Positions 17,342-38,509 of a stretch of DNA of 38,509 bases are shown piece after piece. The notes beneath the pieces are model-generated. The model searched no databases. It saw only the letters and a program-made list of their open reading frames with translations, and was not told where the DNA came from. Position 1 is the first letter of the stretch. Each line of letters opens with the position of its first letter. Source of the stretch: Cryomorphaceae bacterium (GTDB lineage: Bacteria > Bacteroidota > Bacteroidia > Flavobacteriales_D > Crocinitomicaceae); assembly GCA_027485365.1 (NCBI GenBank), contig JAIXRD010000193.1, positions 1-38,509 on the forward strand. Reading direction: 5' to 3'. Made by a program: the position numbers and the translations under genes.

Positions 17342-20300
17342 ATGCGAAAAAGTCTCTTTTTTCTATTCTTTATATGGATAGGTGTTGGTTCTTGTTTCTA
17401 TGGGCAAGAAACAATCAAAACAAATTCTGTTTATCGCGATTACCATCGCGCATGGGAGTTGTATGAAAAAAGTCAATTCACTGCGGCACGTATTGAATTT
17501 GAAAATTTTATCAAGCAACCGCTCGATCGAAATGACCCGTTCCTAATTAAGGCTTATTATTATCAAGGCATGTCGGCGTTGGCGCTGTATAACGACGATG
17601 CCATTTCATTGCTCAATACATTCAACCAGACATATCAAGAAAATCCATACAAAAACACAATTAACGTTGAAATTGGTAATTACTTTTTTCAGAAAGAGGA
17701 CTATACTGCAGCGATTCCTTATTATGAGTTGGTCAATAGTTCAGAATTAGATTCTGTAAATAAAGAGGTTTATTTTTTTAAAAAAGGATACAGCTATTTT
17801 ATTGAGGGCCAACAAAAAGAGGCATTAAACGCGTTTAAAGAAGTTAAAAACTCCGCTGGACAATATGGTGCGATTAGCTTATATTATTATGCGCATTTGA
17901 ACTATACCCTTGGAAGCTTAACTGAATCAAAAACCGCCTTTCACCGCCTGAAATACCAGCCAGAATTCACCACGATTGCTCCGTATTATATTGTCCAAAT
18001 AAATCACAAACAAGGATTATATGACAGTGTCATTGCCTATGCACCTTCGGTATTGGATACAGCAGAATTAGGAAACTACAACGACATCGTTCACTTATTA
18101 GGAGATTCATATTTTAAACTTAACCAGTATAAAGAGGCTGCCCAATATTTGTTGATTTTTGACAAACGAGCAAAAACTACAAGAATCGACGATTATCAAC
18201 TTGGTTTCTCTTTAATGAATACCAACCGAGGGGAAGAGGCCATTACCTTTTTGGAGCGTGCCGCAAGATTTGATGATAGCCTTGGTCAAACAGCGATGTA
18301 TCATATCGCTAATTGTTATTTAAATGCAGATAAGATGTTGCCCGCAAGAAATGCGTTTGAGCGTGTTTCTAAAATGACGGCAAAACCCATATTAGCTGAA
18401 GATGCATTGTATCAATTTGCAGTAATTTCATTTAAAATAGACATCAATCCATATGATGAATCCGTACGGGCGTTTGAGGATTATTTAAAAAAATACCCGA
18501 ATTCAAATCGGAAATCAGATATTTTTCAATACTTAGTTAATGTGTATGCCTCCACCAGTAACTATGCTAAAGCGTTGGAGTCCCTGAATAAAATCCCAAA
18601 TAAAGATGCTCAACTTAAAAATGTTTACCAAACCGTGGCTTTTAACTATGGGGTTGATTTGTATCAAAAATCATTATTAGACTCTGCCTTTAACACCTTT
18701 GGATTAGTAGATAAATATCCAAACGAACCAGAAATAATGGCGAAAGCTAAATTTTGGCGAGGGGATATTTACTTCAAAAAAGCGAAATATAAAGAAGCGA
18801 TTACAGAATTTAAAACGTTCTTAGCCGCACCTTCGGCTAATTTATTAGAAGAAAAACCCGATGCATATTATAGCATAGCTTATGCCTATTTAGAACAAGA
18901 CCAATTAACGGATGCCCTGGAATATTTCGGTATTTACCTTCAATCTAAACCCCAAAATGCAGAAAAAAAGCTTGACGCTATGTTTCAACTTGCGGATGGG
19001 AATTATTCTCAGGGTAAAGATGAACAAGCCATTAAATATTATAAAGAAATCCTAGCTAAAAAAACAGAACAAGCCGATCGCGCTTCATTTTACTTAGCAA
19101 AATCATATGGGTATAATAAGCAACCCTTATTGAAAATCTCGACACTAGAAGAGTTAACCGCGGATTATCCAAAGTCAAAATATATTCAAAATGCATCGTA
19201 TGAATTAGCCATGAGCTACAAGGCACAATCCGATTTCACTAAATCTTTTGAAGGGTTTGAGCGTTATGTGCTGAATTATCCAAAATCGCCTAAAGTGGTA
19301 AACTGCCGTATAGAAATGGCAGACATTTACTATAAACAATGGAAATATCAACTGGCGGAAAGCGCGTATCGATCGATATTATTGGAATATGGGAATAAAA
19401 AAGACATCTGTGCTGTAGCAGCAAAAGGACTAATGGATGTGTATGTTGCGATGAAAAGCCCAGAACGCGCAGAAGAAGTGGCAAACGAATACGATTGCGC
19501 TGGTTTATCGGCAGATGAAAAAGAAAACCTGTATTTTAATCCGGCACTACAGAGTTACGTAGATAGTAATTATGTGGAGGCAATTCCTAAGTTTAATCAA
19601 TATTTATCCAAATTTCCGAATGGAAAATTCTCCCAGGATGCACATTTTTATGCCGGTAATGCCTGTTTAAGATTAAAAGATACACTAGCCGCCTTGCCTC
19701 ATTACGAAGCGTATTTAGCCGGTCCAACAGCAAGCTATTTTGAGCCCGTAGCTTTTAAAATTTCTGCCTATTACTACGAAAAAAAGAACTACGAGTCCGC
19801 ACGAATTTATTACCTCAAACTGGAACAATACGCCTCAAAACCGAATAACATTAATGCCGCAAAAATTGGATTAATGCGTTGTGAGTTTCTTCTAAAAAAC
19901 TACCAAGGAGCAAATAATTATGCAAAACAGGTTCGAGAGATTAGCGGATTGAATCAACCCTTAAAAGTCGAAGCAGAATACGCTTATGGAATGAGCGCTT
20001 TTTATCTAAATAACTACAGTACAGCAGAACCTTCGTTGCGGTGGTTGGTTAAAAATACCGGAACCATTAAAGGCGCGGAAGCGAAATATACCCTTGCAGA
20101 AATTCAATTTAAAAACAACGTACTTGACTCTGCTGTAATCCTTGTTAAAGAATTACTTAAAATGAAACCGAGCTATAATTACTGGGTAGCCAAAGGCTTA
20201 ATTCTTCAAACCAAAGTACATATGCAACTCGGAGAATTATTAGAAGCAGAGCAAACCATAACCTCCGTTATTGACTTCTATCCAATTAAAGAAGAAGATG

Positions 20301-22207: not shown

Positions 22208-25153
22208 ATGCCTAAACTACTTTTAATTTATCTTGTCCTTTCAATGCACCTCAGGGTGTTTAGTCAAGCGGTTAATTTTTCTGCCGCATACCAACAACAT
22301 CCGGAAATTCCTCGCGGATTTTTAGAAGCAATTTCCTATACACATACACGCTTTACCCAAATTAATCCTGAAGAATCTCTAAGTTGTTCAGGAATGCCCC
22401 TCCCTTTCGGAATTATGGGAGTTTTTGACCATGGAAATGGATATTTTTTAGAAAATGCTAAACGAATCGAATCCTTAAGTGGAATTAGCATTACCGCTCA
22501 AAAAAATAATGTAATGATGCAAGTAGAAGCCTATGCATCAGCCTGTGCAAGCCTCATCCAAAGTTACGCCGTCACGGGAGATAACACGCCAGAATTAATG
22601 TATAATTTAATGTGGGAACTGAGTGAAATTCCTCGAGAAGGAAGTATTAATCGGTTCGCCTTTGAATCCAGCGTTTTGGAAGTATTTCGTTTTTTAACCG
22701 ATGAATCCCAAGCGGCTACTTTTGGCTTTCCATTGTATGAAATCAATATGAAAGACTTCTTTGGAAGAAATAACTATGCGGTGTTAACCGCAACAACCGT
22801 TACCATTGATTCCACCGGAATTAAAAACCAAGATCAACTCCATTACCATGGAGGAAATAGTTTAAAATCTATCAATTACGGACCCGCCCTTTGGAATGCA
22901 GCACCCACGTGTAACTATAGCAGTAGAAACGGAAGCGCCATTTCAGCGGTAACCATTCATACGGTACAAGGAACCTATGCCGGAGCTATTTCGTGGGGAC
23001 TAAACTGCAACGCGCAAGTATCCTATCATTATGTGGTGCGCAGTTCAGACGGTCAAGTTACCCAAATGGTCTTAGAAAGCAACAAGGCTTGGCACGTGGG
23101 TAATGAAAACGGATACACCATTGGAATAGAACATGAAGGGTATGTTTCTAATGCCGCGTGGTACACGCCATCGCTTTATCAATCCTCTGCAAACCTGGTA
23201 AAAGACATTACCCAAAGTGGGTATGGAATAAATCCGAAACGGACCTATGATGGTGCAAGCTCAAGTACTACGCAATTGCTCGGTAATTGCATCCGCATCA
23301 AGGGACATCAGCATTATGCTAACCAAAGCCACACCGACCCTGGAATTAATTGGAATTGGAATAAATACTATGGATTAGTCAACGACACCTATACCCCAAC
23401 ACTGCTTACCAATCCTTCAGGAACCTTTTATGACTCTGGTGGGGCAAATGGAAATTACGCGTCTGATGAGCGAAGTGTTTGGGTAATCCAAGCCACGCAA
23501 GGAAGTACAATTACACTTCAATTTACTGCCTTCGAATTAGAGGCTTCCTTTGATAAGTTATTGCTGTACAACGGCCCAAACCTAAATTCTCCGTTACTCG
23601 GTAGTTTTACTGGCAACAGCATTCCACCAAACATCCAATCTACCGGAAACACCTTAACCATAGAATTTCGTTCGGATTGCGCCACCCAATTGGCTGGTTG
23701 GGTTGCCAACTACCATACCGTTGCGCTTACCAACGATATTACTCCACCGGTTAGCACCTTAAGTTATACTGGAACTTGGCAAACGCAATCGTTCACCGCT
23801 GCGTTTCAAGATACCGATGCCTCTGTAATAAAACACAAATTCTATCATGTAGCAGCAAGAGCATCTTCAACAACACCCTTTTTATCCAATCAACCGATGG
23901 GTTTCTTTGAAGATGAATTTAATGGCAATTCAGGACTTTGGACCAATCAATCAGGGAATTTTCAAGTCATGAATGGATGTTTTATTCTGAACGACGCCAC
24001 ACAGAATAATTCAAACGCGTATGCCCAAGTAAGCCAATCTTCACAACATACGTACTTATATACTTGGAAACAACGAATTACATCCAGCAACGCCAATCAA
24101 CGCGCAGGAATGCACTTTTTCTGTAGCGATCCAACCCTGCAGAATCGAGGCAATTCCTACTTTGTATATTTTAGAGAAGAAACGGATAAGGTTCAACTAT
24201 ATAAAGTAATGAACGATGTCTTTAGCTTAGTCAAAGAAGATTCAGTTAATGTCTTGGTAAATCAATGGGATCAAGTCTATGTTACCTATAATCCACAAAG
24301 TGGATTAATTCAGGTATACCTTAATGCGTTACAAGTGTGTACTTGGACCGATGCCAACCCGCTTCAACAAGGTACCGCGATTTCCTTGCGCTCTGGAGCA
24401 TGTACTGTAACGTTTGATGAAGTTTATGTCTATAAAAATCACTCAAACAGCGAACTAATTGCGGTTGGACCCATGCAGGAAATTCATCAGCAAAGTGACC
24501 AACAGATTCCGAGTGGAAAGATTAGAGTTATTGCCATGGATAGCCTTGGAAACTGGAATGTTCCACATGAAACCTTAGTTCAGGTAGACTGGACCGCACC
24601 CGTAATTTCCTCACTAAACGATGGTGCATACTCGGATATAGACAGTGTATATCAACCGATTCTTGAAGGGAATTGGATAGATAATGAGCCACATTCTGGA
24701 CTGGGTTATCAATCTATTGACATCGGAAGTTCCCCTTTGGGAAATGATTTTGTTCAAGCGCATCCGGTAGCGAATAATACATTTACACTCAGTGCAAACG
24801 GGATGGTACCAAACCAAATTTATTATACCACACTTCAGGTGAGTAATCAAGCCGGGTTAAGCACTCAGCTATGTTCCGACGGACAACGCTTTATCAATCA
24901 CGCGAATATCGAATTGAATAATCCGCTAATGGACGTGATACTCTTTCCAAATCCAATTCAAGACGGGCAATTAAGCATTGAAAATTTGATGTTCCCGGTG
25001 GAATTAACGGTGTATGATTTAAATGGCAGGTTGATTAATACCCGTGAAATTACGAACGATGGAAAAACACCCTTGGATCTAAGCACCGGAAGGTATTTAA
25101 TCAAACTCTCCGGAAACGGACATGAATTAATAAAACAAGTGATTGCCTATTGA
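22208..25153 (+). CDS. Secreted N-acetylmuramoyl-L-alanine amidase with CUB, LamG-like and T9SS sorting domains (copy 1)
   Basis: The protein is 981 residues. Its architecture is: signal peptide (MPKLLLIYLVLSMHLRVFSQ); an unusual N-terminal module at ~25-225; an amidase_2/PGRP-type domain at ~235-390 with zinc-ligand candidates His251 (VTIHTVQGTY) and His375 (SHTDPGINWNW); a CUB domain at ~398-505 (SGTFYDSGG ... VWVIQ ... FDKLLLYNG); a concanavalin/LamG-like sandwich at ~570-745 (DEFNGNSGLWTNQSGNF ... GMHFFCSDPT); a Fn3-like region; and a T9SS type A CTD at the end (LFPNPIQDGQLSIENL). It cleaves the MurNAc-L-Ala bond of peptidoglycan and is exported to the cell surface or medium, so lysis of competitors or prey or wall recycling are plausible roles. 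It is paralogous to 25425-28397. Its ATG directly follows a terminator. Confidence 0.9.
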   Translation: MPKLLLIYLVLSMHLRVFSQAVNFSAAYQQHPEIPRGFLEAISYTHTRFTQINPEESLSCSGMPLPFGIMGVFDHGNGYFLENAKRIESLSGISITAQKNNVMMQVEAYASACASLIQSYAVTGDNTPELMYNLMWELSEIPREGSINRFAFESSVLEVFRFLTDESQAATFGFPLYEINMKDFFGRNNYAVLTATTVTIDSTGIKNQDQLHYHGGNSLKSINYGPALWNAAPTCNYSSRNGSAISAVTIHTVQGTYAGAISWGLNCNAQVSYHYVVRSSDGQVTQMVLESNKAWHVGNENGYTIGIEHEGYVSNAAWYTPSLYQSSANLVKDITQSGYGINPKRTYDGASSSTTQLLGNCIRIKGHQHYANQSHTDPGINWNWNKYYGLVNDTYTPTLLTNPSGTFYDSGGANGNYASDERSVWVIQATQGSTITLQFTAFELEASFDKLLLYNGPNLNSPLLGSFTGNSIPPNIQSTGNTLTIEFRSDCATQLAGWVANYHTVALTNDITPPVSTLSYTGTWQTQSFTAAFQDTDASVIKHKFYHVAARASSTTPFLSNQPMGFFEDEFNGNSGLWTNQSGNFQVMNGCFILNDATQNNSNAYAQVSQSSQHTYLYTWKQRITSSNANQRAGMHFFCSDPTLQNRGNSYFVYFREETDKVQLYKVMNDVFSLVKEDSVNVLVNQWDQVYVTYNPQSGLIQVYLNALQVCTWTDANPLQQGTAISLRSGACTVTFDEVYVYKNHSNSELIAVGPMQEIHQQSDQQIPSGKIRVIAMDSLGNWNVPHETLVQVDWTAPVISSLNDGAYSDIDSVYQPILEGNWIDNEPHSGLGYQSIDIGSSPLGNDFVQAHPVANNTFTLSANGMVPNQIYYTTLQVSNQAGLSTQLCSDGQRFINHANIELNNPLMDVILFPNPIQDGQLSIENLMFPVELTVYDLNGRLINTREITNDGKTPLDLSTGRYLIKLSGNGHELIKQVIAY

Positions 25154-25164
25154 TGCTGATGATA

Positions 25165-25259
25165 AGGCAAGCTTCAAACGCCGCAGGCAAATGGGTAGCG
25201 AAAATGGATTCGAAATCTTTGGATACATATTCTAACACATCCAAGCCTGCGGCTTTTAT
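25165..25259 (-). pseudogene. Fossil fragment of the 2-hydroxyacid dehydrogenase gene
   Basis: From 25173 to 25259 this piece matches 28514-28600, inside the dehydrogenase gene, at 80 of 87 bases, in the same orientation. AGGCAAGC at 25165-25172 matches 28501-28508 just before a 5-base deletion. It corresponds to dehydrogenase residues ~245-277, in antisense relative to the amidases. It starts only 11 bases after the stop of amidase copy 1, while the real dehydrogenase 3' end (about 100 bp) is missing. It is non-functional and best read as a duplication remnant. Confidence 0.88.
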
Positions 25260-25356
25260 AAACGTGAACAACGTAAGCTCTCAAAGGTATTTGGGGTATT
25301 GTAATTGTCCCGTTCTTCCCATTCAATTTCTTGCTGTAATTACAGCACGTTTCTAA
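25255..25356 (+). pseudogene. Fossil 3' end of an outer-membrane barrel gene
   Basis: These 102 bases align without a gap to the last 102 bases of the barrel gene (22029-22130), and both end in TAA. The translations share NN, SQRYL, N, PV, PI, T and the terminal F (about 16 of 33 residues). The rest has decayed, including loss of the GG and several aromatic positions. It sits 68 bp upstream of amidase copy 2, as the intact barrel gene sits 77 bp upstream of copy 1. It is the remnant of a second barrel gene. Confidence 0.75.
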
Positions 25357-25424
25357 ACCAGAACTTAACAATCATTTATTATCGAAATAAAATTTTTCTT
25401 TAGAACTTTGCCAATAATAACAAA

Positions 25425-28397
25425 ATGTTAATTATGCGATTATTCTTGTTTATTCTGTTCTCTACTTTTGCTCTTGGCGTCACAACAGCACAATCGGTAT
25501 CTTTCGACCATGCTTATCAACAGTTTCCTTCTGTTCCTAAGGGGTTCCTAGAGGCCTACGCCTTTACACATACGCGCATGGTGCCCGTAGATTCGCAAGA
25601 AACAACTCCTTGTTCTGGTATGCCTTTGCCTTATGGCATCATGGGGGTGTTCGCGGATGGAAAAGGGTATTTTAATGAGAACGGAAAACTCATTGGAAAA
25701 CTCAGTCGAATTGGAATAAATGAACAAAAAGATCAGGTTTCTGTGCAAATATTTGCCTTTGCAAAGGCCTGTGATTCACTGTTACGCTTTTGGGAAACAA
25801 CCCAAAATTCCCGTAAAACAGAGGCGGAAAAAATATATGGTCTCATGGCTGTTTTGACTGAATTTCCCCAAAACAATGAAGGCAACTTATATGCCTTTCA
25901 AAGCAGCGTTTACGAAGTTTATTCCTTTTTAAACGATGAGTATTATGCCGCTACGTATAATTTTCCACTATATGCTTTGGATATGAAGGCACAATTTGGT
26001 GAAAAGAATTATGCCGTGCTTTCATCCCAAAAACTAACCTTATCTGACGAGGGCATAACCAATGTGGATGGTGTTAAATACGATGCTCAAATCGCTCAAC
26101 TCAAGTCGGCTGACTATGGTCCTGCCTTGTGGACAGCAGCACCAACCTGCAATTACAGTTCGCGAAATGGAACGGCAATCTCTGCGGTCACCATTCACAC
26201 TGTACAAGGAACCTATTCCGGAGCAATTTCTTGGGGCTTAAATTGTAACTCACAGGTTTCTTATCATTACGTGGTAAGAAGTTCTGATGGACAAACCACA
26301 CAAATGGTATTAGAAACAAACAAGGCTTGGCATGTAGGCACGGCGAATCCTTACACCATTGGAATAGAACACGAAGGGTATGTTTCAAATCCGACATGGT
26401 ATACCAACGCTATGTACCAAGCATCCGCCAACTTAGTTAAAGACATTACACAGAGTGGCTATGGCATTAACCCACTTCGGACCTATCACGGGGCATCCTC
26501 AACAAGCACCCAAACGCTTGGGAATTGTTTAAAAATAAAAGGCCACCAGCATTACCCAAGTCAATTACATACCGACCCAGGAATTAATTGGAATTGGGAA
26601 AAATACTACCGTCTCATAAACAACACCTATACACCAACCCTCATCACAAATGCCAGCGGTAGCTTTTTTGACACCGGAGGTGCAGGGGCAAATTATCCAA
26701 ACGACGAAAGAAGAGTGTGGGTTATTCAACCCGTTGGCGCGAGCAACATTACCCTGACTTTTACGCAATTCAATGTGCAACCGGTATTTGATAAGATGAT
26801 TATCTATGACGGAGCGAACATTAATGCACCGATTATTGGGTCCTATTCAGGAAGTACCTTGCCCGCAATAGCAACCTCTACAACAGGTGCCTTAACCATT
26901 GAATTTCGTTCGGATTGTACTACCACCCAAACCGGTTGGAGCGCTACATATGTGTCCTCTCAAAACAACATCGACAATACGCCTCCTTCTTGTGTGGCAA
27001 CGGTGCCTCAAGTTTGGAATACCCAGGATTTCACTGCCACCTTACAATCGACAGATGCACAGTCGGGTGTTTTAAAATCTTACTACAATGTCTCAGACCG
27101 TTCTTCGATGAATGCAAAATTCTTCAGTAATCCCAGTTATGGGTTTTTACGAGATGAATTTACCTTAAACAACCTTCAATGGACAAATCAAACAGGGGCA
27201 TATCAAGTAAACGCTGGGGTATTCTCCTTAAACGATGCAAGCCAAAACAATTCCAATGCGTACGCCCAATTAACCCAAAACACCGGCTCCATTTATTTAT
27301 ACACCTGGAGACAACGCATGACCTCTAGCAACGCAAACCAGCGAGCAGGAATGCACTTTTTCTGCAGCGATCCAACCCTGCCAAATCGAGGCAATTCCTA
27401 TTTCGTTTTTTTCAGAGAAGAGACGAATAAGGTACAGATTTACAAGGTTATCAATGATGCATTTACAATTGTATTTGAAGACACGGCTATCATGGCGCCT
27501 AACGTATGGTATAAAGTTTACACGCATTACAATCCTTCTAATGGATGGATCAAGGTATATTTAAATGGTGTTTCTATTGCACAGTGGCAAGACGCGAACC
27601 CTCTGCTTACCGGAAACTCTGTTTCATTGCGATCTGGAGGCTGTACCATAGATTTTGATGACATCTTTGTATACAAGGCAAATTCACCTACGGAAATTGT
27701 TTCTGTTGGGGCTAATAAAGAAATCAGGTACCAAAGTGATCAACAAATTCAGTCTGGTGATATTCGTATGATTGCCATTGATTCCGCTGGAAACTGGTCT
27801 GCTCCCTCATCCCAATTGGTACAGGTAGATTGGACCGCACCACAGTTAAATGCCATCAACGATGGAGCAGGCAACGACATTGATACTGTATACACTTCTA
27901 CCCTTTATTCGAATTGGAACATCGTTGATCCTCATTCTGGAATCTCCTATTTTGATGTTTCTGTTGGAACAAGTGCGGGAAGTACAAACATCAGCAATTG
28001 GGTGGGAGTAAACAATGTCAACTCATATAACCATACGCTCGCCTCGCCGGTTTATAATACCACATATTACATAAATAATCGCGCTTTTAACAATGCAACG
28101 CTTACTGCTACTTACTCCACGGATGGGCAAAAATTGATTCTAAACGCAGGTTTACAAGAAGACCATTTATTAAACAATGTAGAGATTTATCCGAATCCGA
28201 ATGACGGTTCTGTGTTGTACTTTAATAATGTAACACAACCCATTCAAATTGATGTGTACGATGCCAACGGAAAATGCGTAATTTCATCAAAACTGCAACA
28301 AAACGGTGGGATTCCAATCTCTTTGGCCAATGGGTTTTATCAGGTGTGGGTCAAAAATTCGAATGACTTTGTGGTTAAAAAACTCATAGTTCATTGA
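25425..28397 (+). CDS. Secreted N-acetylmuramoyl-L-alanine amidase with CUB, LamG-like and T9SS sorting domains (copy 2)
   Basis: This 990-residue paralogue of the 22208 gene has the same module order: signal peptide (MRLFLFILFSTFALG, so the ATG at 25434 is also possible); an N-terminal module with GFLEAYAFTHTRM and CSGMPLPYGIMGVF; an amidase domain with His258 (VTIHTVQGTY) and His382 (LHTDPGINWNW); a CUB domain at ~405-510; a LamG-like sandwich; and a T9SS CTD (IYPNPNDGSVLYFNN). The two copies share long identical blocks in the amidase and LamG-like parts and diverge most in the N-terminal module and CTD. The stop overlaps the convergent dehydrogenase stop by 7 bp. No immunity-like small protein accompanies either copy. 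Confidence 0.9.
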   Translation: MLIMRLFLFILFSTFALGVTTAQSVSFDHAYQQFPSVPKGFLEAYAFTHTRMVPVDSQETTPCSGMPLPYGIMGVFADGKGYFNENGKLIGKLSRIGINEQKDQVSVQIFAFAKACDSLLRFWETTQNSRKTEAEKIYGLMAVLTEFPQNNEGNLYAFQSSVYEVYSFLNDEYYAATYNFPLYALDMKAQFGEKNYAVLSSQKLTLSDEGITNVDGVKYDAQIAQLKSADYGPALWTAAPTCNYSSRNGTAISAVTIHTVQGTYSGAISWGLNCNSQVSYHYVVRSSDGQTTQMVLETNKAWHVGTANPYTIGIEHEGYVSNPTWYTNAMYQASANLVKDITQSGYGINPLRTYHGASSTSTQTLGNCLKIKGHQHYPSQLHTDPGINWNWEKYYRLINNTYTPTLITNASGSFFDTGGAGANYPNDERRVWVIQPVGASNITLTFTQFNVQPVFDKMIIYDGANINAPIIGSYSGSTLPAIATSTTGALTIEFRSDCTTTQTGWSATYVSSQNNIDNTPPSCVATVPQVWNTQDFTATLQSTDAQSGVLKSYYNVSDRSSMNAKFFSNPSYGFLRDEFTLNNLQWTNQTGAYQVNAGVFSLNDASQNNSNAYAQLTQNTGSIYLYTWRQRMTSSNANQRAGMHFFCSDPTLPNRGNSYFVFFREETNKVQIYKVINDAFTIVFEDTAIMAPNVWYKVYTHYNPSNGWIKVYLNGVSIAQWQDANPLLTGNSVSLRSGGCTIDFDDIFVYKANSPTEIVSVGANKEIRYQSDQQIQSGDIRMIAIDSAGNWSAPSSQLVQVDWTAPQLNAINDGAGNDIDTVYTSTLYSNWNIVDPHSGISYFDVSVGTSAGSTNISNWVGVNNVNSYNHTLASPVYNTTYYINNRAFNNATLTATYSTDGQKLILNAGLQEDHLLNNVEIYPNPNDGSVLYFNNVTQPIQIDVYDANGKCVISSKLQQNGGIPISLANGFYQVWVKNSNDFVVKKLIVH

Positions 28398-29488: not shown

Positions 29489-31357
29489 TTATCTTCCCAA
29501 ATAGATCAAAAGAACAGAAATATCGCTGGGCGAAACCCCAGAAATACGCGAAGCTTGTCCGATGGTGACAGGTTGGATGTGCGACAGCTTTTCTACGGCT
29601 TCGGTACTTAAACTTTTTAACTGGGCATAATTTAAGTCGCTTGGGATTTGCACGCGTTCTAAGCGATGCATTTTCTCTGCAATTTCCTCTTCCCGTTCAA
29701 TATACCCTTCATATTTCACTTGAATCTCTGCTTGGACCACCACGTCCTCTGCTATCTCATTGTTTTTCAATGTATTATACAATAAAGTAGAGGCATTTGT
29801 TAAGATATCCATAGTTACTCCGGGTCGGGTAAGTACGCTGGATAATTTTACTTGCTGCGTTATGGGCGAAGATTCCATCGCTTCTAAGTGCGGATTCATT
29901 TCTTGGGGTGTGATTCCAATGGATTTAAGTTCTTTTTTGAGCCATTGGGTTTGCGCTTCCTTCTTAATCACTTGCTCGTGTTGTGCTGAAGTAATCATTC
30001 CCAATTCAAAGGCCTTTTCACTTAATCGCAAATCCGCGTTATCTTGTCTCAACAAGATCCGATACTCAGCGCGGCTGGTAAACATTCGATACGGTTCTTT
30101 GGTTCCTTTGGTAACTAAGTCGTCAATCAATACGCCGATGTAGGCTTCGCTTCGTTGAAGCATAAACGGTGCTTTATCGTTGATCTTGAGGTGTGCGTTG
30201 ATACCCGCCATTAATCCTTGGCAGGCTGCTTCTTCATATCCTGTAGTACCGTTTATTTGTCCGGCAAAATATAAGCCCTCAATGGCTTTTGTTTCCAGGG
30301 TATGTTTCAACTGAGTGGGTGGGAAATAATCATATTCAATCGCATAGCCCGGTCTAAATAACTTCGCCTGCTCAAATCCTGGAATTAATTTAATTGCGCT
30401 AACCTGAACATCCTCCGGAAGCGATGTACTAAAACCATTCACATAGATTTCAACGGTATTCCACCCTTCGGGTTCAACAAAGATCTGATGCCGATCCCGG
30501 TCTGCAAAGCGATTAATTTTATCCTCAATGCTAGGACAATAGCGTGGGCCTGGACTTTTAATGGCGCCATTAAACATGGGTGAACGATCAAAACCGGTAC
30601 GCAACTGATCGTGCGTTGCAGGATTCGTGTAGGTAATATAACATGGAAGTTGATGCGCCAAGGCCTTTGTATCCCAATAACTAAATTTCGAAGGATTCTC
30701 ATCGCCGTGCTGGATTTCCATCTTCGTATAATCTAAACTTCTTCCGTCTACACGGGGTGGAGTTCCGGTCTTCATTCTGCCCGATTCAAAGCCTAAGGAA
30801 ACCAAGTCTTCCGTTATCCCGGTTGAAGCACGTTCTGCGGCTCTTCCACCACCAAACTGTTTTTCACCTAAATGAATAATTCCATTTAAAAAGGTACCGT
30901 TGGTTAATACCACGGCACGACTATAAATATCGATTCCTAGGCTTGTTTTAACCCCAACGACTTTATTGTTTTCTACAATGATTCCGGTACCCATGTCTTG
31001 CCAGAAATCCACATTCGGGTTTTGTTCCAATAAGAGTCGCCATTCCGCTGCAAACATCATGCGGTCGTTTTGCGTACGTGGAGACCACATGGCGGGACCT
31101 TTTGAAAGATTAAGCATTCTAAACTGGAGTGCACTTTTATCGCTTACAATCCCTGAACCACCTCCTAAGGCGTCGATTTCTCGTACAATCTGTCCTTTAG
31201 CTACTCCTCCCATGGCGGGATTACAGCTCATTTGAGCAATAGTGTTCATATTCATTGTGAGCAACAACACCTTGCTTCCCATTTTAGCTGCGGCATTGGC
31301 TGCCTCACAACCGGCGTGACCCGCACCAACAACAATCACATCATACGTATCTAACAT
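29489..31357 (-). CDS. mnmG: tRNA uridine-5-carboxymethylaminomethyl modification enzyme MnmG (GidA)
   Basis: This 622-residue FAD enzyme has an N-terminal Rossmann motif [19 protein letters not shown], the conserved [14 protein letters not shown] block near residue 200 and [16 protein letters not shown] near residue 370, and a C-terminal helical tail ending [21 protein letters not shown]; all are hallmarks of MnmG. With MnmE it installs the cmnm5 group at U34 of tRNAs. The gene starts 12 bases after the ybeY stop, in a predicted operon order DUF4175 - HATPase - ybeY - mnmG. A parS site lies immediately upstream in the ybeY 3' end. In many bacteria mnmG is close to the replication origin. Confidence 0.97.
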
Positions 31358-31369
31358 GGTAAAATTTAA

Positions 31370-31795
31370 TCAATGTTTCACGTGAAACAATTTATTTAAA
31401 TAGAAGTTTTCTTTAGCGCGCATTACCTCAATTTCTTGATCTGTTTTATCGTTGTATCCGACTAAATGTAATACCCCGTGATAACAAACCCGATGCAATT
31501 CTTCTTCCATAGAAACACCCAGCTGAGTTGCATTATCTTTTATACGATCCACGGAGATAAATAAATCACCGCTGACTATCGAATCATTGTTATAATTGAA
31601 GGTAATAATGTCTGTGTAATAGTCGTGATCTAAATGCTCTTTATTAATAGCTAAGAGCTCTTCGTCGATACAGAAAATCAACGTGATATCTCCTAATTCA
31701 CGGGATTCCAAGGAGACTAATACAGGTAAGGTTTCCGTTATGGAATCAATAGGTAAACCAGCAATTTCATTGGAAAAGTACTCAATAGAAATCAT
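31370..31795 (-). CDS. ybeY: rRNA maturation endoribonuclease YbeY
   Basis: The product is 141 residues from the ATG at 31795, which overlaps the upstream TGA (ATGA, 31792-31795); an alternative in-frame TTG at 31807 lies within the upstream gene. The metal motif reads HGVLHLVGYND: His106 and His110 are present, but the third metal position is Asp116 where the classical E. coli-type H-x3-H-x5-H has His. As far as I know this is common in Bacteroidota. SGDLFIS and TFNY match the family. It matures rRNA and takes part in 70S quality control. The codons for the last residues (LFHVK) contain a perfect parS palindrome. Confidence 0.92.
   Translation of the reverse strand: MISIEYFSNEIAGLPIDSITETLPVLVSLESRELGDITLIFCIDEELLAINKEHLDHDYYTDIITFNYNNDSIVSGDLFISVDRIKDNATQLGVSMEEELHRVCYHGVLHLVGYNDKTDQEIEVMRAKENFYLNKLFHVKH
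31374..31389. other. parS centromere site (TGTTTCACGTGAAACA)
   Basis: This 16-bp perfect palindrome is identical to the consensus parS bound by chromosomal ParB/Spo0J. It lies inside the ybeY coding sequence, covering the codons that end ...LFHVKH just before the TGA, and is 17 bases upstream of the mnmG start codon. A single perfect match in a random window this size would be unexpected. Whether ParB binds it here is an inference from the consensus. Confidence 0.85.
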
Positions 31796-32205
31796 CGACG
31801 AAAACAAACATTAACCACTGTACCACCCGCTTCATACGTTACTTCGTCTGACAGATTTTTCATAAGAAATACGCCGCGGCCATTTTCTTTCAATAAATTC
31901 TCCGGTGCCGTTGGGTCAGGAATAGCCTCGGGATCAAACCCAGCGCCTTGATCTTTAACAGAAAAACAAACCCATTCCTCGTTGTTATGAACTCCCACAT
32001 GAACAGATAATGTTGCATCCAACTTATTCCCATGAATTATGGCATTATTTACCGCTTCTGTTACCGCGATCAAAATATTACCATAAGCGTCTTCACTGAG
32101 CGCTAACTCGCCACAAGCTACATCAATTAAACTTTCAACATCCGTAATAGAGGCTGGTGTTGAAGGTAGAGTTACTTCATGGATTAATTGTAATTGATGT
32201 TTCAT
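31792..32205 (-). CDS. Anti-sigma/HATPase-type ATP-binding protein (RsbW-like)
   Basis: This 137-residue protein is a stand-alone GHKL ATPase domain: N-box LIAVTEAVNNAIIHGN (~residues 46-61), G1 box KDQGAGFD, and a later ENGRGVFLMKNLSDEV. It has no sensor or phosphoacceptor domain. Members of this group are RsbW/SpoIIAB-like serine kinases or anti-sigma regulators, but in Bacteroidota the one next to ybeY and DUF4175 has no assigned partner. It begins 9 bases after the DUF4175 stop, and its TGA overlaps the ybeY ATG, indicating translational coupling. Confidence 0.85.
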   Translation of the reverse strand: MKHQLQLIHEVTLPSTPASITDVESLIDVACGELALSEDAYGNILIAVTEAVNNAIIHGNKLDATLSVHVGVHNNEEWVCFSVKDQGAGFDPEAIPDPTAPENLLKENGRGVFLMKNLSDEVTYEAGGTVVNVCFRR

Positions 32206-35583: not shown

Positions 35584-36060
35584 CTTGGGTAAAAGTAAAA
35601 ATTCATCGCTACATTCCCTAGTTTAATCTTTGCACACCAGTTAATTGTATTTAAAGATATTTATTTAAAAAGAATTTTATTAAAACTATTAAGGCTGTTC
35701 ATTTGTGTAAAAATAAGACCCTTTTATTAACCTTGCATTACTATCAACGAGATTTCAACGGTTTGTTAACATAATTTAATTTCATATTAGCCAATTAAAC
35801 CAAGAATAAATACCCTGTTGTTCACGTGTGTGTATAAGTGACTAAGGTTTATAAATAATTCCAAAAACGCCCGATTTTTTAGTTAACAATCCGTGCATTC
35901 TTATTGCAAAGATTCCGCTAAGTTTCATGCATTAAGTCAAATACTTGTATATAAGCGAACCCAATTGAATATTCCTACACTTTTCTTTTAGCAGTTTTCA
36001 ATACTAATTAACAAGGCTATTCACATGTTATCAAATCACTAATTTTACAAAAAAAACACC
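35584..36060. other. AT-rich intergenic region (477 bp), no gene seen
   Basis: No convincing ORF or tRNA is present. It separates the minus-strand DUF4175-to-mnmG operon from plus-strand rpiB and is notably AT-rich. It contains one exact DnaA-box-like nonamer (TTATACACA, minus strand, 35829-35837), two single-mismatch ones (35704-35712 minus; 36017-36025 plus) and several TTAAC/GTTAAC words. A promoter-like AATCTTTG lies at 35626-35633, and TAATTTTA stands before rpiB. It could be a promoter region, a weak candidate replication origin, or hold a small RNA; I see no decisive structure. Confidence 0.6.
35829..35837 (-). promoter_or_regulatory. DnaA-box-like nonamer TTATACACA
   Basis: An exact match, read on the minus strand, to TTATNCACA, the DnaA box consensus. 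It is the only exact match in the 477-bp gap. Chance occurrence in such AT-rich DNA is quite possible. Confidence 0.35.
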
Positions 36061-36754: not shown

Positions 36755-38509
36755 TTATTCAAACATTTTTTTAAAGTCCTTTGTAAAATATTCTCTTACT
36801 GATTCGTTTACTCCTGTCGGCTCATTATAGAAAAATAGGTCAATTTGAACTTCCTTGTCGTTATACTTAATTGTATGGCCATTGAATATATTTTCATAGC
36901 CTTTTGCCTTGTCTTCTGCGTTACCTGTTCCTACTACGTTACCTTTTGGATCAATGAACTTTATAATTAATTTGTTACTGTCTTTTGGTTTTAGCCAAAA
37001 AACAAAGTCTGGAAAGAAGTTTCTGTATTCTTGTTCTCTCGTGTCGTAATATGGTATAGAAACATCATCTGTTGTTTGGTCTATTTTTGAGAAATACCAC
37101 CATTCGTATTTTTCAAGTTTGTCACGATTTTCTTGCAGTTTCTTTAAAAATTCAACTTCTGAAGGAACCCAAACAATGTGTTTAAAAAGTTGTTTGTGTG
37201 CTTCTGATGTAAGTATGATTGGATTGTAATAATTTTCTACTAAAAAATCCGTATTTAATTCAAGTTTCAAACCATTATATGAATAGTTGTTTGGTTTGTC
37301 TTTGCTGTTAAATAAGTCAAGTTGTTCCTGTAATTGTTGGTCGTTTAGCTTCTTTGCTGTGTAGGCTGCAACTATATCACTAACGGAATTGTATTCCGAT
37401 TTACTGCCTTTTATAGAATCAATAATCGCTTGTTCTAAAAGTTCAAGTTCGTTATCAGGAAGATTGGCAACTTCAATTTTGTCAAAGTGGTTTATTTCCG
37501 TCAATACTGGTTCGAATGATTTTAGGCGTTTTGGTTTTTGATTGAAATGTTGATTTAGAAGCAACAAATTGTCAATTGGTTTACGAATGGAACGAGAAAC
37601 AGTGAAATTAAAATTCGTTTCAATTCTTATTTTTTCTAATGTAGAAACCAATGTTTTTGATACATTGATTGGTGATTGCATCAAAACAATTTTGTCTTGT
37701 ACACCTGCACTTTTTCCAACGAATTCTAAAAGGTCGTTGTATTCATCACGGTTTATTGAATAAGCAGGGATTTCTGCGATTACTTCTTCATATTTCGGAA
37801 TCAGTAATTCTTGAGGTATAGCTGTTTTAGCAATATGCTTAACTATTTTCCAATCGTCAGCATCTTTTTCTCTGCTTAGATTTTCAGTAATATTTTTAAT
37901 TACTTCCTTTTTTGTAGCAAATAAAAACAAACTTTCTAAAGGCAAGTTTCTTTTCAGAATGTCAGCTTTAGCTTTAATATCAATGTACCTTGAAAGTGTT
38001 TCAGTTTCTTCTGGAGATACAATGTAGTCAAGTCGCTTTCTAATACCTGAAACTGGTTGAATTCTTACACCACGTCCAATTGCTTGAAGTACAAATTTTT
38101 GTGCACCTTCGTCAACGCCAATATTGATAAAGTTTACAACATTTGGTCGATTACTATCCCAACCTTCTGTAAAGATTCTTGAACCTAGTAAAATATTAAT
38201 ACCGCTTGTTTGTGAGTTTATTTCCTTAAAGTAAGATTTAGTTAATGGTGTTTCTGTGTATTCGTAATTATCCAAAACATTGTCACTCCATTTGGTTGCA
38301 TCTGATGCAACTAACAAACAAAAATGTTGACCTGCATCTGCTGTTTTAAGTCTGAAAGCTATTTCACGACTATTGTTTAATATTCTTGTATATTCTATTT
38401 TTCCATATGATGAAGCATTAAAAACGTACTTTAGTATATCTTCTTTGCTAATGTTTTCAATAATTTGAATAAATGAAGACGGAATTTCCGCTGTATTGAA
38501 TTGATATGA
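36755..38509 (-). CDS. Type III restriction enzyme Res-like helicase-nuclease, C-terminal part (partial)
   Basis: The frame is open to the right edge; the TTG at 38317 is internal, so about 584 codons of a longer gene are visible. Helicase motif V (GSRIFTEGWDSNRPNVVNF) and motif VI (QAIGRGVRI) of an SF2 enzyme are followed by a ~400-residue linker and a C-terminal PD-(D/E)xK nuclease candidate: FPDFVFWLK ... IKFIDPKGN, with PD before D-P-K. This is the layout of type III restriction Res subunits. The Mod methylase, if present, must lie beyond the window. The gene sits just past the paired inverted repeats, consistent with an acquired defence segment. Confidence 0.85.
   Translation of the reverse strand, partial: SYQFNTAEIPSSFIQIIENISKEDILKYVFNASSYGKIEYTRILNNSREIAFRLKTADAGQHFCLLVASDATKWSDNVLDNYEYTETPLTKSYFKEINSQTSGINILLGSRIFTEGWDSNRPNVVNFINIGVDEGAQKFVLQAIGRGVRIQPVSGIRKRLDYIVSPEETETLSRYIDIKAKADILKRNLPLESLFLFATKKEVIKNITENLSREKDADDWKIVKHIAKTAIPQELLIPKYEEVIAEIPAYSINRDEYNDLLEFVGKSAGVQDKIVLMQSPINVSKTLVSTLEKIRIETNFNFTVSRSIRKPIDNLLLLNQHFNQKPKRLKSFEPVLTEINHFDKIEVANLPDNELELLEQAIIDSIKGSKSEYNSVSDIVAAYTAKKLNDQQLQEQLDLFNSKDKPNNYSYNGLKLELNTDFLVENYYNPIILTSEAHKQLFKHIVWVPSEVEFLKKLQENRDKLEKYEWWYFSKIDQTTDDVSIPYYDTREQEYRNFFPDFVFWLKPKDSNKLIIKFIDPKGNVVGTGNAEDKAKGYENIFNGHTIKYNDKEVQIDLFFYNEPTGVNESVREYFTKDFKKMFE

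Follow-up and report, generated by a model that had tools for sequence, protein, structure and literature searches.

A consensus parS palindrome in the last codons of ybeY, linked to mnmG and close to a predicted oriC in a Cryomorphaceae bacterium

A perfect 16-bp palindrome in the last codons of ybeY, next to mnmG, raises the question of whether the sequence is kept for the peptide that it encodes, for the control of mnmG, or for the segregation of the chromosome and, in the last case, whether it lies close to the origin of replication. The palindrome was analysed in a window of 38,509 nucleotides, the whole stretch under study (contig JAIXRD010000193.1 of assembly GCA_027485365.1), and in the genomes of relatives. 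It is almost certainly the chromosomal parS of a ParABS system, for which we infer ParB binding, a function in segregation, and oriC activity. As a standard parS of an ordinary ParABS, it therefore belongs to a known kind of system.

The palindrome at the end of ybeY

The palindrome TGTTTCACGTGAAACA (positions 31374–31389, unstranded) has zero mismatches to the consensus for parS (Livny et al. 2007, in the form given in PMC10197239), and its identity to the consensus given in the earlier note is thus correct. The minus-strand gene ybeY (31370–31807), encoding endoribonuclease YbeY (PF02130), carries the site in its last codons, LFHVKH and stop, and the C-terminus in the translated open reading frame, ..FYLNKLFHVKH, runs across the palindrome. 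The gene mnmG (also gidA, PF01134; 29489–31357, minus strand), to which parS is linked across the phylum, starts at 31357, and parS is located just upstream of it. The coding of YbeY residues by the site and its closeness to mnmG, both described previously, hold as well.

An exact 16-mer is expected by chance approximately 1e-5 times in the window, and the probability of an exact match in 2.5 Mb is approximately 6e-4. The draft genome (2.54 Mb in 356 contigs, 94.5% complete) contains one exact copy. The next-best genomic match, with two mismatches, falls outside the TGTTYCACGTGRAACA type; at three mismatches there are 17 parS-like sequences versus 19 matches to the reversed control. The expectation that more copies would occur in the same chromosomal arc was not borne out in the assembled 94.5% of the genome. 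A search of Rfam gave no match.

The sole other match in the window with up to three mismatches, TGTTCCACATGAAACC (24559–24574, three mismatches), is within chance expectation, as shuffled sequences give 0.29 such matches per window. It is positioned inside the first of two adjacent paralogous genes for secreted proteins of approximately 985 residues (22208–25153 and 25425–28397, together spanning 22208–28397), which share long near-identical stretches. Both paralogues match one and the same gene in the congeners that were read, which suggests that the pair arose in this lineage by a recent duplication. The large minus-strand open reading frame at the end of the window (36755–38317) has no Pfam match and, by eye, is similar to the C-terminal portion of a restriction or helicase subunit.

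The cognate ParB

The genome encodes a single ParB (contig C140, 8004–8525, E = 2.3e-53), located beside ParA. The protein is composed of the N-terminal ParB_N domain, an HTH_ParB domain, and the dimerisation domain ParB_C, and its nearest relatives of solved structure are ParB/Spo0J proteins. One TIGR00180 ParB per genome was found in each of 15 genomes searched (15/15). The DNA-contact residues, in Caulobacter numbering, are Q162, K171, S172, R173, N178, G201, and R204, of which R173, N178, G201, and R204 are assigned by the spacing of the segment KSRSDIAN...TMGHAR. Position 170 is occupied by serine instead of glycine, and positions 179 and 184 by histidine and lysine. Arginine 173 and glycine 201 distinguish parS-type contacts from those to NBS, as Noc has Q173 and R201 (PMC7383237). 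Judged by these two residues, the ParB is of the parS type and not of the Noc type. The check for parAB in the genome thus returned one ParA–ParB pair, the ParB of which has parS-type contact residues.

Position of parS relative to dnaA, parAB, and the skew minimum

Since parS was expected near oriC, its position was compared with those of dnaA, parAB, and the turning point of the skew. In relative G038, which is assembled into one contig of 3.98 Mb, parS is at 17,389, dnaA at 462,058, and parB at 2,878,265, corresponding to distances from parS of 445 kb for dnaA and approximately 1.1 Mb for parB. In relative G016 (a 2.2-Mb contig), parS at 1,118,633 and dnaA at 548,070 are 570 kb apart. Among 20 loci, none was found with parS beside parB or dnaA.

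The genome of the window is in 356 contigs, and the skew was read from relatives. Raw GC skew was dropped for placing the origin, as it is weak, noisy, and dominated by coding direction in this group; the skew at third codon positions (GC3) was used in its place. In G016, the GC3 skew has its minimum, with a change from negative to positive, in the 20-kb bin that holds parS (1.10–1.12 Mb). In G038, the same change of sign falls at the 3.98/0-Mb junction, within approximately 20 kb of parS. In both genomes, it is parS, rather than dnaA, that marks the turn. Because the parS locus coincides with the turning point of the skew in two relatives, the claim that the window is origin-proximal is supported. 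Of the earlier statement that parS clusters near oriC, the vicinity of oriC, and of mnmG, stands, whereas the comparison with dnaA and parAB places these genes hundreds of kilobases away.

When the GC3 skew was pooled over 20 loci, including the window itself, the change of sign fell on the flank of parS opposite to mnmG, at a distance of 4 to 5 kb. Minus-strand genes shift from −0.05 to +0.17, and plus-strand genes shift in the same direction, from −0.18 to −0.09; the plus-strand set beyond the turn is small and never becomes positive, so that the minus-strand genes carry most of the weight in the fine placement.

Predicted oriC between DUF4175 and rpiB

The pooled skew turn and a conserved sequence block point to the intergenic region that separates the DUF4175 gene from rpiB (35584–36060, unstranded), which is AT-rich (71%), as the predicted oriC, at 4.2–4.7 kb from parS. 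The block resembles a BUS (basal origin unwinding system), in which a DnaA box is followed by a spacer of 10–13 bp and TA(G/A) DnaA-trios (PMC8287927). Its first element is the DnaA-box-like sequence TTTTACACA (35704–35712, minus strand), which is TTATACACA in several relatives. The box is adjoined by the spacer AATGAACAGCC and a degenerate DnaA-trio-like element, TTAATAGTTTTAA (35680–35703, minus strand), which were identified by reading the sequence and from the alignment; the trio-like element in relatives is TAATAGTAG. The combination of DnaA box, spacer, and trio-like element is shared by 17 aligned loci, and its clearest members, read on the minus strand, consist of the box in its TTATACACA form, the spacer with a length of 11 bp, and TTAATAGTAGTAG.

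Of 22 loci, 7 contain a strict pattern in which a DnaA box is combined with a spacer no longer than 16 bp and three or more DnaA-trios, each time at a distance of 4.39 kb from parS. The expectation over all loci is 0.05, which describes the position and is not a blind test, as the pattern was written after the alignment had been seen. DnaA boxes are not in excess in the window, where five were observed versus 6.6 expected, and among the DnaA-box signals there only the conserved block is informative. Because the window's own copy of the block is degenerate in both the box and the trio-like element, the assignment of the DUF4175–rpiB region as oriC is a prediction.

The site could be parS and yet lie in an arc without a replication origin, the true origin being at dnaA or parAB. 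The distances of 445 and 570 kb to dnaA and approximately 1.1 Mb to parB fit such an arrangement, as does the weak and noisy raw skew of the group. However, in both genomes the GC3 skew has its turn at parS instead of dnaA, and the pooled skew turns 4–5 kb from parS at the conserved BUS-like block, which makes an origin elsewhere improbable. Moreover, dnaA need not mark the origin, as has been noted for gut bacteria (PMC10197239).

Linkage of parS to mnmG in the genus and across the phylum

Exact copies of the palindrome are present in 29 of 60 relatives searched, with zero matches to the reversed control. The flanks of mnmG contain the exact site in 25 members of the genus, including the window's own genome, and one-mismatch sites (TGTTCCACGTGAAACA, TGTTTCACGTGGAACA, and similar) in the remaining seven with mnmG assembled. 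All 32 congeners with an assembled mnmG start (three members without mnmG in the assembly are outside this count) thus have parS, with at most one mismatch, within approximately 75 bp upstream of the gene, while the surrounding DNA differs among them. The same-place conservation in close relatives that had been proposed as a check is therefore found in every testable congener. Two further members with one side of mnmG assembled have the site as well. Many members of the genus contain a doublet of parS copies with starts 24–47 bp apart, unlike the species of the window, which, together with its nearest relatives, has a single copy. In eight relatives (L284, L285, L286, L291, L325, L326, L328, and L330), mnmG is bracketed by a parS just past its stop codon and the upstream parS.

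In an even sample of the phylum, the degenerate motif TGTTYCACGTGRAACA is present in 222 of 297 genomes and absent in its exact form from 75, versus 1 of 297 for the reversed control. Carrier genomes have one to five copies, which, among the copies listed, are tightly clustered within each genome. Of 30 sampled mnmG genes, including that of the window, 27 have parS (at most one mismatch) in their 1.5-kb flanks, mostly within 200 bp and either upstream, downstream, or on both sides, and three do not; a permuted-palindrome control matched 0 of 200. The linkage of mnmG and parS is thus strong across the phylum and not universal. A scan of named genomes placed parS just upstream of mnmG also in Chlorobi, Desulfuromonadales, Alphaproteobacteria, and Firmicutes, among the matches listed. 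The neighbourhood of mnmG and parS is apparently old and, in this group, apparently persisted after parAB and dnaA had become separated from it.

The constant position within approximately 75 bp upstream of the mnmG start in 32/32 congeners is also what would be seen if the palindrome were an operator of mnmG, bound by a transcription factor unrelated to chromosome segregation. This is very improbable, as the site in many relatives is a short way downstream of the gene or flanks it on both sides, the sequence is identical to the parS consensus in a genome with a matching ParB, and the site marks the skew minimum. It is similarly unlikely, though somewhat less so, that parS in Bacteroidota is held at mnmG by function and not by history, such that ParB loaded at sites next to mnmG or on both sides of it tunes the expression of mnmG, and of ybeY, or transcription of mnmG tunes the loading of ParB. 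If it were so, tRNA modification would be coupled to origin segregation.

The same DNA in two reading frames

Among 103 distinct ybeY loci, parS overlaps the coding sequence in 46 and is located wholly after the stop codon in 43; this 46/43/14 split is biased, as many loci were fetched through the search for the site, and the frame change holds regardless. The overlapping sites are read in frame 1 (..FHVK..) at 13 loci and in frame 2 (..VSRET.. or close to it) at 32. The retention of the same 16 bp while frame and peptide change shows that selection acts on the DNA, and rules out selection on the YbeY peptide. A required YbeY C-terminal peptide with a coincidental match to parS, to which the overlap here and at the 46 loci might lend itself, has virtually no chance of being correct and is refuted by the frame change, together with the sites past the stop codon and the low probability of an exact chance match. 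The proposal that one 16-bp sequence serves both protein and centromere therefore stands for the overlap and not for the protein role, which looks incidental, the tail sequence being a by-product of the DNA site.

Proposed mechanism and implications

In the mechanism that we propose for the palindrome as parS, ParB, encoded together with ParA on another contig, would bind the site as a dimer, load there as a CTP clamp, and slide into the neighbouring mnmG–ybeY–DUF4175 DNA. ParA would move the freshly copied origin region. Because parS is approximately 4 kb from the predicted oriC, it would be replicated almost first.

The combination of parS and mnmG provides a simple origin landmark for Bacteroidota drafts, which also serves genomes with dnaA and parAB far from the origin. 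Where genomes of the group have just one or two copies of parS, a change to one site could serve as a test of origin segregation. The overlap, with its switch of frame, neatly illustrates how a signal in the DNA can prevail over the tail of a protein. Our literature searches, the scope of which did not include Livny et al. 2007, found no paper stating that parS is linked to mnmG in Bacteroidota. New here are the phylum-wide linkage to mnmG, the two-frame argument for selection at the DNA level, and the predicted oriC in the same window.

Comparison with known systems

The locus shares with chromosomal ParABS/parS systems the identical 16-bp palindrome, a parS-type ParB, a ParA partner, the origin-proximal position, and a low copy number. 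It differs in having parAB far away and in the association of the site with mnmG, which it brackets in some relatives, instead of with parAB. The predicted oriC is similar to the BUS (PMC8287927) in its DnaA box, spacer, trinucleotide repeats, and AT-rich intergenic location near the skew turn, whereas it is predicted, its trios are degenerate in the window itself, and few DnaA boxes surround it. A signal embedded in a gene, which the earlier note had considered unusual, is common for parS near oriC: in P. aeruginosa, nine of the ten parS sites most likely lie within genes (PMC4368675). The window resembles P. aeruginosa in that a parS near oriC is part of a coding sequence, and differs from it in that a single site lies over the tail of ybeY, in a frame that differs among relatives.
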